Assembly (NCBI GenBank): GCA_030038395.1
Contig: JASHOZ010000013.1
Location: forward strand, 1-53,473
Length of the DNA stretch: 53,473 nucleotides
Reading direction: 5' to 3'
From: Nitrososphaerales archaeon
GTDB taxonomy: Archaea > Thermoproteota > Nitrososphaeria > Nitrososphaerales > Gagatemarchaeaceae
Of the stretch, positions 15,720-35,394 are shown piece by piece (position 1 is the first letter of the stretch; each line of letters starts with the position of its first letter). Made by a program: the position numbers and the translations under genes. The notes under the pieces are model-generated. The model was given only the letters and a program-made list of their open reading frames with translations. It had not been told where the DNA came from and did no database searches.

Positions 15720-16625
15720 ATGCGACGAAGTGTGACAGACCGGGATTCGGAGCTCGCGAGGGAGGCAGCGGAGCGCATGTCAGACGAGTATACCGACTCG
15801 AGGATCTACGAGCGTCTCTCCAGGACGGTCGTCGGGGGGAGCCCCTTCGCCTCGGTTCTGACCCAGCTCTCGGTCACCGAGAACGGTCACTACGAGTTCT
15901 GGAGGAAGTACGCGCCTGATGCCAAACCCAGGCTGGATAGGGTGAAGCTATACTGGGTGCTCTTCCTCAGAAGAGTGCTCGGTCTCACCTTCGCGTCCAG
16001 ATATCTCGACAGGCACGAGTCGTCGGTCGTCGAGAGGTACAAGGCGCTGGCAGGGATGATCCCCGACGCCGACAAGCCCGCGTTCGACAGCATGGTTGCG
16101 GACGAGGTCGAGCACGAGAAGGAATTCGCGCGCAAGATCGAGAGCTCGACCATCCGTTACATCTCCTTCATCGTCCTCGGGCTCGCTGACGCGCTGGTGG
16201 AAATCACCGGCATCCACGCCGGGTCGCTTGGGATATACAACAAGACGGAATACGCGGGGCTCGCCGGGGTCGTGGCCGGCGCAGCGGCCTCCCTGGCGAT
16301 GGCCTCAGCCGCCTTCGCACAGGCGAAGCAGGGCTTTCAGGGCTCGGCCCGCCTGAGCGCGCTGTACACGGGGGTGTCGTACTTCGTGACTGCCGTGATA
16401 CTGGCGACGCCTTACTTCCTGACCGGGGTCATGGTCTACGCCTTGGCCGCCTCGCTCAGCCTCGCGGTAGTGATCCTCACGCTTACTACGTACTACAGCA
16501 CGGTGATCTCCGGCAAGCCCTTTACGAAGGACTTCACGGAGATACTCATCATAATGCTCGGAGTGACAGTCGCACTATACCTATTCGGGTACGCCATCAG
16601 GGTCAGCTTGGGAGTGACGATCTGA
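15720..16625 (+). CDS. Membrane-bound ferritin-like protein with VIT1/CCC1 domain (MbfA type)
   Basis: Probable iron/manganese exporter. The N-terminal half (about 1-140) is a rubrerythrin-like four-helix domain with Glu/His metal ligands (NGHYEFWRKYAPD and DEVEHEKEFA). The C-terminal half (about 145-301) has five hydrophobic segments with the VIT1 features GLADALVEITGIHAG and GVVAGAAASLAMASAAF. MbfA proteins in bacteria export iron in response to iron load. The ATG is about 24 bp from TTCATATACGG (15693-15703), so the mRNA is leaderless. Relevant to the iron module at 32022-34002. Confidence 0.85.
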   Translation: MRRSVTDRDSELAREAAERMSDEYTDSRIYERLSRTVVGGSPFASVLTQLSVTENGHYEFWRKYAPDAKPRLDRVKLYWVLFLRRVLGLTFASRYLDRHESSVVERYKALAGMIPDADKPAFDSMVADEVEHEKEFARKIESSTIRYISFIVLGLADALVEITGIHAGSLGIYNKTEYAGLAGVVAGAAASLAMASAAFAQAKQGFQGSARLSALYTGVSYFVTAVILATPYFLTGVMVYALAASLSLAVVILTLTTYYSTVISGKPFTKDFTEILIIMLGVTVALYLFGYAIRVSLGVTI

Positions 16626-17010: not shown

Positions 17011-17118
17011 CGGGCCCGGTGGGATTTGAACCCACGACCTCTGCGAGCCTCGGCTCTCTACAGCTTAGAAGGATCGGCGTGACGCTCTGCCGCGCTATCC
17101 GTACTGCGCTACGGGCCC
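17011..17118 (-). tRNA. tRNA-Arg(UCU) with two introns (14 and 19 nt)
   Basis: Minus strand: acceptor GGGCCCG/CGGGCCC, TA, D arm GCGC-AGTACGGATA-GCGC, T arm GTGGG-TTCAAAT-CCCAC, discriminator G at 17011. The central region is 33 nt too long. Removing 14 nt (17073-17086) and 19 nt (17041-17059) leaves a perfect anticodon arm GCAGC-CTTCTAA-GCTGT with anticodon TCT (17069-17067) and a normal variable loop AGGTC. Intron 1 therefore lies at 30/31 and intron 2 at about 43/44. No single intron at 37/38 gives a pairing stem. Intron 2 contains a GAGC-CGAG-GCTC hairpin. A TATA-like GCTTATGTC lies upstream on the minus strand (17145-17153). Confidence 0.8.
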
Positions 17119-28039: not shown

Positions 28040-28123
28040 GGCGTCGGCTCCCAACCCGCTGCGAATGGCTCCGAGTTCAGCCTCGGCTGCACGAACATGG
28101 AGCAGGGATGGCTTGGGAGAGAA

Positions 28124-28218
28124 AGCCAGCGCCGCGATTCGGACGCGGGACCCCTTGCTTACGAGGCAACTGAGCCCCTTGAAACGGGAGTGCTCTGACC
28201 AGGCTGAGCTACGCTGGC
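28124..28218 (-). tRNA. tRNA-Thr(CGU) with a 20-nt intron in the anticodon stem
   Basis: Minus strand: acceptor GCCAGCG/CGCTGGC, TA, D arm GCTC-AGCCTGGTCA-GAGC, A26, T arm CCGCG-TCCGAAT-CGCGG, discriminator T (28124), as expected for archaeal Thr. Removing 20 nt (28169-28188, or shifted by one) restores the anticodon arm CTTGC-CTCGTAA-GCAAG with anticodon CGT (28163-28161) and variable loop GGGTC. The intron is at 28/29 or 27/28. Position 55 is C (base 28142) instead of the universal U. ATTTTAAATG lies upstream on the minus strand (28242-28251). Confidence 0.85.
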
Positions 28219-28303
28219 TCGATGCCGCCTGAGATGCGACCCATTTAAAATCGTGAGCCGCTCGGCGGGGTGGGCATCCCTCGTCCTTATGGCGAGCACC
28301 TCG

Positions 28304-32021: not shown

Positions 32022-32810
32022 CTACTTGCTTCTCTCGCTTCGGTGAGGCCGCGTGCCCCGCACGCCACTCGCCGCATTCACAGCCAGCATCTTCGCCACC
32101 ATCTTCCCGTGCTTTGCCTCGTCTATGTCGATGGATTCGAGCAGGATGCGGGCGACCGGATGGTCCACCTTGACGCTGTCGCGCAGGCTCACCTCCTTTG
32201 CCGAGTCCTCCAGCGCCAGAACGCTCTCAAGCAGGTCCCTCCCGGGAAGCTCGAACTCTCTTCTGCCGTCTGACTCCAGCCAGGAGATGACTTGAGAGAC
32301 GACGTCGCCATGCCTGATACTGTCCGACGCGATCATACGCAGCAGGAGCTTGGTGTAGTCGTCCGTTGTCCTGTTCGCAAGCTGGAGATACTGTTCTGCG
32401 GCGGCTAGCTCGAGCTGGAGTCTCTCCCTCAGAAGCGCCAAGGACTTGCTATTTCCGCTTGGCTCCTCCAGGCGGCTCGCGACGATCCCCTTCCCTGCTC
32501 TGACGACCGCGACCTGACGGGCAGCCTCGAACAGCTCGACCATCTCGACTGGCCCCAGGCCAGAGCCGGACCGCCTGATCACCTTCTCGGCGAGCGGCTC
32601 GACCAACTGCTCTACGCTCGACGAACTCTCGTCCGCCCTGCCCCTCGTTTTCTTGAGATACTGTGTAACCGCCGAACGAGAGACTCCGAGCGAGGCGGCA
32701 ATCTCGCTGCCTGCGAACCCATCTCTCGCCATCCTCAGCGCGAGAGCAGCCCTGACCACCGGGATGAACCGTTCCTCACTTCCGATGGCCGCGGTTCTTC
32801 CTTTGGGCAT
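32022..32810 (-). CDS. HTH regulator fused to a ferritin-like (di-iron) domain
   Basis: N terminus: FIPVVRAALALRMARDGF, then GSEIAASLGVSRSAVTQYL, a helix-turn-helix like that of the COG2522 archaeal regulators. Residues about 125-245 form a ferritin-like four-helix bundle with repeated metal-ligand helices: ELAAAEQYLQLA, SDSIRHGDVV, ALEDSAKEVS, IDIDEAKHGKMV. The likely role is a transcription factor that senses iron (or oxygen/peroxide) through a di-iron site. It is divergent from an FTR1 permease with twin palindromes between. TATA TTTAAG (minus, 32842-32847) predicts a leader of about 10 nt. Confidence 0.8.
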   Translation of the reverse strand: MPKGRTAAIGSEERFIPVVRAALALRMARDGFAGSEIAASLGVSRSAVTQYLKKTRGRADESSSSVEQLVEPLAEKVIRRSGSGLGPVEMVELFEAARQVAVVRAGKGIVASRLEEPSGNSKSLALLRERLQLELAAAEQYLQLANRTTDDYTKLLLRMIASDSIRHGDVVSQVISWLESDGRREFELPGRDLLESVLALEDSAKEVSLRDSVKVDHPVARILLESIDIDEAKHGKMVAKMLAVNAASGVRGTRPHRSERSK

Positions 32811-32865
32811 GGCGACTTGAAGTCGCGCCTCTCGGGTCTTCTTAAACCATGCCCGTAAATTACAC

Positions 32866-32886
32866 TGTTAACAAAACATGTTAACA
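32866..32886. promoter_or_regulatory. Twin palindromic operators TGTTAACA
   Basis: Two perfect copies of the palindrome TGTTAACA (32866-32873 and 32879-32886) are separated by AAACA, 13 bp centre to centre. They lie between the HTH-ferritin regulator (minus) and FTR1 (plus), just upstream of TATA-like sequences for both (TTTAAG at 32842 for the regulator, ATAAATATTA at 32896-32905 for FTR1). A site controlling both genes is likely. Confidence 0.65.
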
Positions 32887-32982
32887 TCGTCATCGATAAA
32901 TATTACGTATGTTATACTCGAGACGGTTGCCTCGGATTCCAAGTGACCGACCAACGGCGGCCGCAGGGGGCATACCCTGAAC

Positions 32983-34002
32983 ATGCCTGCATCTGAGGGC
33001 TCGGGTGGCCTCGGCGCAGACCCAAAGATGCCGCGCTTTGACTCGCGGCGGTTCGTCCGCACCGCGGCGATCGTGGTCGGCGCGGGGGTCATCGCCGCGG
33101 TCCTGATCTGGCAGGGCATCACGGCCGCGGGCAACCCTAACCCGACAACGAGCACGTCCTTCCCGATCGCAGCGCTCGACATCGCTGTCCTGGTGAACCG
33201 CGAAGGTCTGGAGTCCATTCTTGTCTTGGCCGCCCTGATAGCCGGCCTGAAAGGGAAGGACTACGGGTACCAGCGTCCTGTCCAACTCGGCGCAGGGCTC
33301 GGCTTCTTTGCCGGAGTAGCCACCTGGTTCGTCGCGATCTCTATCGTGAGCGAGCTGATAGTCAGCTATGGGGGGCTTGCCGTTCAGGCTGCGACCGGTA
33401 TGTTCGCTGTCGTCGTCCTTCTGATAGTGATGAACTGGTTCTTCCACGGTGTCTATTGGTCCGGGTGGATCAACATGCAGACGAGGGCCAAGAGGTCGTT
33501 CATCGCCGAGGCCCAGCAGGTCGGCAAGAACACGCGTCGAGTGCTTGTGGGCCTCGTGCTCCTCGGCTTTGCCTCTGTGTACCGCGAGTCCGTCGAGGTC
33601 GTGCTTTTTCTCCAGAGTTACTACATCGAGATGGGGCCCAAGGTCGTGTACTACGGTGCGGCGGCGGGTCTCGTCCTGACCGTCGCCGCCGGCTACCTGA
33701 CCTTCCTGGGGCACAGGCACCTTCCGTACAAGAGGATGATGGTGACGACTGGCGCCATGCTCACGGGGGTGCTCTTCGTGATGGTGGGGGAGGAGGTAAA
33801 CGAGATGCAGCTCGCCGGCTGGATAGGGACAACCAACATTCCCGCGCTTCGGGCTACGCCGGCGTGGGCAGGCCTCTGGTTCTCTGTCTTCCCTAACGTC
33901 CAGACGTTCGTCGGGCAGGCGGCGGCACTCCTGCTCGTTGGAGGCGCGTACTTCATCTCTAGGCGCAGGATGTCAAAACTGATCGGCTCCCAGCCTCGGT
34001 AG
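32983..34002 (+). CDS. FTR1-family iron permease
   Basis: 339-aa membrane protein with about seven transmembrane helices. Both iron-binding motifs of the family are present: NREGLESILVLAAL (REGLE, first repeat) and YRESVEVVLFLQ (second repeat REx(V)E). An N-terminal cytoplasmic extension of about 30 residues precedes helix 1. In other organisms FTR1 imports Fe(III) after oxidation by a partner; no oxidase gene is adjacent here. ATG 32983 follows a long leader that contains TGTTATAC (32918-32925). Confidence 0.9.
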   Translation: MPASEGSGGLGADPKMPRFDSRRFVRTAAIVVGAGVIAAVLIWQGITAAGNPNPTTSTSFPIAALDIAVLVNREGLESILVLAALIAGLKGKDYGYQRPVQLGAGLGFFAGVATWFVAISIVSELIVSYGGLAVQAATGMFAVVVLLIVMNWFFHGVYWSGWINMQTRAKRSFIAEAQQVGKNTRRVLVGLVLLGFASVYRESVEVVLFLQSYYIEMGPKVVYYGAAAGLVLTVAAGYLTFLGHRHLPYKRMMVTTGAMLTGVLFVMVGEEVNEMQLAGWIGTTNIPALRATPAWAGLWFSVFPNVQTFVGQAAALLLVGGAYFISRRRMSKLIGSQPR

Positions 34003-34323: not shown

Positions 34324-35394
34324 CTAGACCGCGAGCTGTTTCTCGCCAGTGGCGAGTTCTTCGAGCAGCTCGTAGCATCTGAGAGCGTCCTTCTCCTCAA
34401 TCACGACGATCGCGTGGGGGCTGCAGGTGATGTATTCTACGAGGTTCACTCCGTTCCGCGCAAGGTGCGTGCTGATGGTCGCAACGACCCCTGGGATGTT
34501 CATCACGGAGTCCGAGAGAGAGATCACTATCTCGGCCAGGTCTGTCGTCACGCTTAGGATTCTCTTCTTGGCGACGACAGTCTTCAGCTTCTCGAGGTTC
34601 TTGGAGTCTGTGATCACCTTCACCGTCTCGATGCCTGACACTATGTGGAGAGTCTCGCCTCTGGAGTAGTCTACCTCAGCGGAGAACTTGGCGAGTGCCT
34701 TCGGAATCGCGGGGTCGTTGGTGAGGGCCACGACCGCTATCTTGTTCTTCAGGGTGAGCTTCAAGACGAGCTTCTTCATGGCCTCGTTCTCGCTGATTCT
34801 GTCCTCGGCCGGATACCGGGTGACGAGGCTGATGGTCTGCGGTTCCGGGACGGAGCGCGCCTTCCTCGCTTCCTCCTCCCAAGGCATCTGGACCTTATAG
34901 ACGTCGACCGGAAACGCGACGTTCTTGAGGTTCTGCGACTCGAACTTTATGAGAGCATAGGGGAGCTTGTTCCTGACCTGGTCGTACACCTGCTCGGAGA
35001 TGAAAACCTCCTCCCCGTTTGCGAGAGTCTCGATTCTTGAAGCGATGTTCACCGCGTCGCCATATACATCGCCGTTCTGATGCACTACGTCGCCGATGTG
35101 TATCCCTACTCTCACGAGTATCTTCCGTGTGGCGCGCGCGTTGTACGCGTGAAGCGCCTTCTGGACCTCGACGCCGCACTTCGTCGCATCGAGTGCGCTC
35201 TCGAACTCAACAAGGAACGCGTCCCCCATTGTCTTGACCTCGTGGCCCCGAAACCGGCTGAACACCGGCCTCACGATTTCCCTGTGCTTGCGCAGAAGTC
35301 TCAACGCGAGAGACTCGTCTCGTTGGCTGAGCGCGGTGTATCCCACGATGTCAGTGAACATGATTGCCGCGAGTCTGCGGCTAGAACGAGGCAT
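34324..35394 (-). CDS. Class III nucleotide cyclase fused to an ACT-like domain
   Basis: Residues about 1-165 are a class III adenylate/guanylate cyclase domain: IMFTDIVGYTALS (first metal Asp), VKTMGDAFLVEF (second metal Asp), VRVGIHIGDVV, DVYGDAVNIASRI (transition-state Asn/Arg). Residues about 205-356 resemble aspartokinase-type ACT modules, with ISLSDSVMNIPGVVATISTHLA and GVNLVEYITCSPHAIVVIEE. ACT domains bind amino acids, so this may be a cyclase controlled by an amino acid. TTTTAACG (minus, 35426-35433) predicts a leader of about 10 nt. Confidence 0.85.
   Translation of the reverse strand: MPRSSRRLAAIMFTDIVGYTALSQRDESLALRLLRKHREIVRPVFSRFRGHEVKTMGDAFLVEFESALDATKCGVEVQKALHAYNARATRKILVRVGIHIGDVVHQNGDVYGDAVNIASRIETLANGEEVFISEQVYDQVRNKLPYALIKFESQNLKNVAFPVDVYKVQMPWEEEARKARSVPEPQTISLVTRYPAEDRISENEAMKKLVLKLTLKNKIAVVALTNDPAIPKALAKFSAEVDYSRGETLHIVSGIETVKVITDSKNLEKLKTVVAKKRILSVTTDLAEIVISLSDSVMNIPGVVATISTHLARNGVNLVEYITCSPHAIVVIEEKDALRCYELLEELATGEKQLAV

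Follow-up and report, generated by a model that had tools for sequence, protein, structure and literature searches.

A candidate archaeal metal-responsive regulator combining an HTH domain with a ferritin-like domain

How iron is sensed in most uncultured archaea, including the abundant Thaumarchaeota of acidic soils, is largely unknown. A review of bacterial iron handling describes Fur, DtxR/IdeR, RirA and Irr as sensors (PMC7762939). The 53,473-nucleotide stretch of Nitrososphaerales DNA analysed here (the window) raises the question of whether a ferritin-type domain might serve this function as well, as a predicted DNA-binding protein with ferritin-like helices is encoded there back to back with an iron permease. 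If the reading developed below is true, a ferritin-type metal centre would join the few domains through which DNA-binding regulators sense iron, so far those of Fur, DtxR/IdeR, Irr and RirA. The analysis supplies a family of proteins, the DNA site that goes with it and the transporters that are its candidate targets.

A regulator gene facing an iron permease gene

The host genome has a size of 1.49 Mb (1,486,398 bases), is 91% complete and has Nitrososphaerales archaea as its relatives. Its nearest named relatives are non-ammonia-oxidising Thaumarchaeota from acidic soils, such as Candidatus Gagatemarchaeum (PMC10640624). In the window, two divergent ORFs of 262 and 339 amino acids are separated by a gap of 172 bp:

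32022 to 32810, minus strand: gene for the predicted HTH and ferritin-like regulator, with the HTH at residues ~16-57, linker helices at 63-111 and a ferritin-like four-helix domain at ~120-250
32983 to 34002, plus strand: gene for an FTR1-family iron permease, divergent from the regulator gene, assigned by Pfam and by two REXXE motifs read in the translation

The 339 amino acid protein belongs to the Pfam family FTR1 (PF03239) with 31.0 bits against a cut-off of 25.3, and both REXXE motifs are present as REGLE and RESVE. The HTH_23 match of the 262 amino acid protein covers residues 20-55 and is barely over the Pfam cut-off. The arrangement described in the original prediction, an HTH-ferritin regulator divergent from an FTR1 permease, holds.

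The ferritin-like domain and its candidate metal site

The 262 amino acid protein taken alone gives only a weak ferritin-like call (Mn_catalase and EncB matches in Pfam and NCBIfam), and its EncB (NF058679) score of 19.4 bits is below the curated cut-off of 90. The ferritin-like character that had been proposed for the C-terminal domain is nevertheless confirmed by the relatives, wherein 49 of 75 match Pfam Rubrerythrin (PF02915) at E<=0.01 (best 1.4e-5) and 52 of the 75 match the NCBIfam EncB ferritin-like model at the same threshold. In addition, a 19-sequence family profile matches solved bacterioferritins with an E of 8.7e-6. Judged by its detectable domain, the C-terminal part of the regulator family is a member of the ferritin/rubrerythrin superfamily.

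An AF2 model of the regulator monomer has a mean pLDDT of 87 and a pTM of 0.56 (an earlier AF2 model, built from 19 sequences, was poor, with a pLDDT of 70), and it places the helices of the C-terminal domain at residues 120-147, 151-179, 191-205 and 218-252. Comparison of this model with bacterioferritin by Foldseek gives a probability of 0.99, yet the E is 0.14 and the TM is 0.22, which reflects poor superposition. Closed ferritin bundles in general could not be superposed on the monomer (TM about 0.2, Foldseek E>=0.14). One possible reading of the poor superposition is that a single chain leaves its two helical hairpins apart, as encapsulated ferritins do.

In the family alignment, residues E134, D163, S164, H167, E201, D230, E231 and H234 are invariant or near-invariant. 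Alignment to bacterioferritin yields a helix-1 Glu, a helix-2 [Ser]xxHis, a helix-3 Glu and a helix-4 GluxxHis. Five of the six canonical ferroxidase ligands are kept, and the helix-2 Glu is Ser164 in all relatives, with an invariant Asp163 one residue before it; ligand conservation is biased in the part of the wider relative set that was recruited by patterns over the ligand motifs, and the unbiased support is provided by the subset collected by whole-protein search without such patterns. The combination of two ExxH motifs and two further Glu ligands is incomplete, with Ser164 replacing the helix-2 Glu.

Partner genes and the candidate ligand

There are 113 related loci, and 80 were kept from GTDB species genomes of the Nitrososphaeria, Thermoplasmata and Micrarchaeota. 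Among the 77 with enough upstream sequence, the upstream partner is ZIP (42), FTR1 (9), Nramp (8), FeoB(+FeoA) (4), a PhnD-type binding protein with an ABC ATPase (4), ferritin (1, adjoining the regulator at locus L045) or another gene (9). Thus, ZIP, FTR1, Nramp or FeoAB genes are located upstream of the regulator at 63 of the 77 loci. A divergent group of ZIP proteins connects to ZIP recognised by Pfam at 30% identity (E 9e-28). The proposed coupling of a ferritin-domain regulator to an iron transporter is borne out by the divergent FTR1 gene in the window and by the metal uptake genes upstream in relatives.

FTR1 and FeoAB transport iron, and no other metal is shared by the FTR1, FeoAB, ZIP and Nramp families. 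Since iron is specified by FTR1 and FeoAB and permitted by ZIP and Nramp, it is the most economical ligand candidate. A different choice, in which Mn or Zn is the ligand instead of Fe, or more than one of these metals is sensed, seems to us somewhat unlikely. Such a ligand would suit the fact that ZIP heads the list of partners and in many cases transports Zn or Mn, that Nramp often carries Mn, and that both families are broad in metal choice. However, several lineages have FTR1 or FeoAB as partner, which share iron with the ferritin gene beside L045, and the sensor domain falls in the ferritin/rubrerythrin superfamily.

The PhnD-type substrate-binding protein with its ABC ATPase is the divergent partner at L047, L048, L054 and L058, all from Aigarchaeota, and an everted ATAACG-N-CGTTAT site lies near the start of the PhnD-type gene. 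This system is possibly a transporter of metal, not phosphonate. One further locus, L037 (PNBD01000007.1), is on a contig labelled Deltaproteobacteria that carries an archaeal-type ZIP, the operator and an HTH-ferritin gene, and this contig is probably mis-binned.

An everted operator with two-turn phasing

Two perfect TGTTAACA palindromes between the divergent genes had been proposed as twin operators. There are exactly two copies of this sequence in the window, at 32866-32873 and 32879-32886 and thus 13 bp apart, where 0.20 copies are expected by chance and two copies were reached by 1 of 100 shuffles. The whole genome of 1,486,398 bases holds no copy beyond those two. The pair recurs in the same register upstream of homologous genes (L003, L006, L007 and L014), down to ~35% protein identity.

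The conserved upstream sequence in relatives is longer than TGTTAACA and reads ACGATGTTAA-N9-TTAACAsTGTtATTAAC, which breaks down into everted palindromes of 13 bp with the pattern TTNACA-N-TGTNAA as its conserved units. The information content is 1.3-2 bits at most half-site positions and 0.1-0.5 bits in the spacer. Matches to the 13-mer at >=9/10 are present in 40 of 74 upstream regions of family members (0.35 expected from dinucleotide shuffles) and in none of the 72 downstream controls. The proposal therefore stands insofar as a real predicted operator, beyond chance, is located between the divergent genes, but the 8-bp palindromes are not its unit. We rejected the possibility that the two TGTTAACA copies are two independent 8-bp operators, because their spacer-side and outer bases are not conserved and the copies correspond to facing halves of the 13-mers. 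A structured RNA or riboswitch between the two genes was also rejected, as there is no Rfam match there.

The predicted elements in the gap are listed below. Model R1 is a sequence-only model of the composite operator that was run on the host genome and 100 related genomes, and the TATA-like boxes, and with them the promoters, were assigned by eye from the sequence.

32839 to 32848, minus strand: TATA-like box GGTTTAAGAA, putative regulator promoter, ~30 bp before the ATG
32853 to 32890, minus strand: composite operator matched by model R1, with no further match in the genome apart from the overlapping one to the same site read in reverse
32859 to 32871, minus strand: core site S2, TTAACAGTGTAAT, an everted palindrome on the regulator side
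32866 to 32873, no strand: TGTTAACA copy 1, the inner half of S2 plus flanking bases
32879 to 32886, no strand: TGTTAACA copy 2, the inner half of S1 plus flanking bases
32881 to 32893, minus strand: core site S1, ATGACGATGTTAA, with its centre 22 bp from that of S2
32896 to 32904, plus strand: TATA-like box ATAAATATT, putative FTR1 promoter
32903 to 32915, minus strand: weaker third site S3, ATAACATACGTAA, with its centre 22 bp from that of S1, just downstream of the putative FTR1 TATA-like box

The centres of the three sites, 32865, 32887 and 32909, follow exact 22-bp steps, and the third site is weak. Among relatives, the distance from one site to the next has its peak at 22 bp for Nitrososphaeria (z=8.3) and at 21 bp for Micrarchaeota (z=5.8). 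The inner base pair is A-T in Nitrososphaerales and Micrarchaeota, C-G in Thermoplasmata and T-A in Geocrenenecus. Cooperative or paired dimer binding would fit the 22-bp phasing, which corresponds to two turns, and the cooperative dimers that the original prediction had read from the spacing are compatible with this phasing of 13-bp sites.

The location of the sites relative to the TATA-like boxes may bear on the sign of regulation. In Micrarchaeota and at L014, L049 and L096, the sites occupy the interval from the TATA-like box to the regulator start codon, over the expected transcription start, and the window has S3 immediately downstream of the FTR1 TATA-like box; with boxes assigned by eye, both placements suit repression. 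For these reasons, repression is preferred over activation. Perhaps the same protein and operator instead form an activator, wherein binding of the apo (or oxidised di-iron) form ahead of the TATA boxes would switch on the transporter. S1 and S2 do precede the FTR1 TATA-like box, as sites of archaeal activators can, and the sites of Thermoplasmata operons are upstream of the transporter TATA-like box. Against the sites that cover expected transcription starts, however, we regard activation as unlikely.

Relation to known regulators and ferritins

The architecture had been predicted to differ from those of Fur and DtxR, and the domain searches agree. There is no match to the Fur domain (PF01475) in the regulator at E<=1, and PF01325 of DtxR scores 12.2 bits against a cut-off of 26 while PF02742 is unmatched, which places the protein outside the DtxR family. 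No Pfam or NCBIfam family covers the full-length regulator, and a description of an HTH-ferritin regulator was not found in the open-access literature. By these comparisons, the protein would work like a one-component metalloregulator outside every tested family.

The DtxR/IdeR/MntR proteins, including archaeal MDR1, SirR and Idr, are metal-responsive one-component HTH dimers that control metal uptake genes, and the same is predicted for the regulator. However, the DtxR dimerisation domain that serves them as sensor is absent in the regulator, and the operators differ. Control of metal uptake genes is a documented role of bacterial DtxR-type metalloregulators (PMC7762939). The likeness to Fur, PerR and Irr would lie in the regulation of iron uptake, and the regulator has no Fur domain match. 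With its place beside iron and metal uptake genes in many lineages and its shared DNA site, the HTH-ferritin family suggests iron sensing unlike that of Fur, DtxR, Irr and RirA. FBXL5, a eukaryotic ubiquitin ligase, is an iron sensor with a hemerythrin-like helical-bundle di-iron domain. A helical-bundle di-iron sensor is also predicted here, but FBXL5 is not DNA-binding and its bundle is unrelated.

The regulator shares with EncFtn/EncB and with rubrerythrin/bacterioferritin a ferritin-like four-helix sequence, the Glu / GluxxHis pattern and a two-hairpin character, and it differs from them in its HTH fusion, in the change of the helix-2 Glu to Ser and in its EncB score (19.4 versus 90). This likeness also raises the possibility of an oxygen or peroxide sensor, wherein a rubrerythrin-like di-iron centre reacts with O2 or H2O2, as the di-iron centres of those families do, and ties iron uptake to oxidative stress in a PerR-like manner. 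We consider this quite improbable, as the neighbouring genes are for metal uptake and not for peroxidases or superoxide dismutases.

The N-terminal HTH presumably resembles the archaeal ThiR/COG2522-type HTH in sequence pattern, and the regulator differs from that type in its ferritin-like effector domain. HTH-only and HTH-fusion paralogues are present among the relatives. HTH-only paralogues of ~130-140 amino acids have two GTTAAC motifs 9 bp apart upstream (positions 236/245 in L024 and 1797/1806 in L025), and these perhaps represent a sister regulator with a shorter operator.

The operator across genomes

Thermoplasmata operons in which ZIP precedes the regulator on one strand provide a natural control. 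The regulator itself has no site ahead of it there, and the site is instead located 80-102 bp ahead of ZIP, as is found in 9 of the 10 such operons with enough sequence. In the host genome, model R1 finds one place only at E<=10, which is the gap between the regulator and FTR1 genes. The gene mbfA at 15720 had been named as a further target, but the 80 bp before it carry no such sequence, and by the operator criterion mbfA is outside the predicted regulon. In alphaproteobacteria, mbfA is controlled by Irr (PMC7762939). With this single operator, the host genome shows no wider regulon for the site, and one regulator corresponds to one transporter.

Strong R1 matches in the 100 related genomes are located at regulator loci, at FTR1 promoters (G038 and G014), at a ZIP promoter (G038) and at one place in G076. 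The regulator was not recovered in G038 and G014, which are 72-76% complete. Of the genomes with a strong operator, 11 of 13 encode the regulator, compared with 8 of the 88 others (101 genomes, Fisher p=3e-8), although related genomes are not independent and the two exceptions are the 72% and 76% complete genomes. FTR1 or ZIP pairs carry the operator in most lineages, and thus the absence from relatives that would have spoken against the original prediction is not what is observed. The operator model is also a handle for annotating metal transporters, such as the divergent ZIP relatives missed by Pfam and the Aigarchaeota PhnD-type ABC system.

It is very improbable that the operator belongs to another regulator and that the HTH-ferritin gene is merely a target: the genome does encode a DtxR-family protein (contig C60), and DtxR sites are likewise AT-rich dyads, but the site moves with the HTH-ferritin/transporter unit, co-occurs with the HTH-ferritin gene as given above, and has a variable base pair that tracks the recognition helix (A-T with T44, C-G with A or V44 and T-A with His50 types), a correspondence inseparable from phylogeny.

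The strong composite operator in G076 (C65:2966-3003, L115; E 6e-9) follows a cytochrome b-like gene and precedes short ORFs, and no metal gene is recognisable there. Weak matches near E 0.005 are within genes (G048 and G050) or near unrelated genes (G080:C33 and G087) and were treated as noise. The composite site was not found at the related FTR1 genes in G097 and G006. The FTR1 promoter of G006 (L137, about 225-275) has two copies of an S3-like element, TTACATATGTTATGG, and no S1/S2 composite site.

A proposed iron-uptake switch

The regulator is most likely a one-component metal-responsive repressor of uptake, and Fe(II) is probably the metal that is sensed. On balance, we favour the view that the locus is an autoregulated iron-uptake module, in which the Fe(II)-loaded HTH-ferritin protein represses FTR1 and its own gene. 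The computations establish the fusion, the ligand set, the linkage to transporters, the operator and its geometry, and the occurrence of the operator at transporter promoters away from the regulator. From these we infer that the HTH-ferritin protein binds the operator, that iron is the ligand and that the holo form is the repressor. Against this view stand Ser164 at the helix-2 Glu position in every relative, the Zn or Mn often carried by ZIP, the single operator in the host genome, the poor superposition of the AF2 monomer on closed ferritin bundles and the DtxR-family protein that the genome also encodes.

In such a module, the HTH-ferritin protein would bind as a dimer to the everted 13-bp palindromes, which in this lineage read TTAACA-N-TGTTAA. 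With two to three sites at 22 bp, on one face of the DNA, neighbouring dimers might occupy the divergent promoters jointly. Under abundant Fe(II), the ferritin-like bundle would be loaded at E134, D163/H167, E201 and E231/H234, and this would favour the DNA-binding form and repress both genes. When iron is scarce, the metal site would empty and uptake would be switched on.

The host genome has one DtxR-family protein over the cut-off and only a sub-cut-off match for Fur, and therefore the module looks like a local, transporter-dedicated switch, which may coexist with the DtxR regulator. More broadly, our confidence is evenly divided on whether these proteins represent an undescribed archaeal iron-sensor family in at least three groups (Nitrososphaeria including Aigarchaeota, Thermoplasmata and Micrarchaeota). 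In such a family, an HTH fused to a modified ferritin/rubrerythrin di-iron bundle would govern FTR1, FeoAB, ZIP or Nramp via a shared two-turn-phased everted operator, and the Ser/Asp-altered metal site would be tuned to reversible sensing and not to storage or oxidation.

Other features of the window

There is an Rfam tRNA match over 108 nucleotides at 17011-17118 on the minus strand without an ARAGORN call, which suggests an intron-containing tRNA. A tRNA-Glu at 28123-28219 is called by ARAGORN without an Rfam match. Adjoining the FTR1 gene, the minus-strand gene at 34324-35394 encodes a protein that joins ACT-like domains to a class III adenylate/guanylate cyclase domain.
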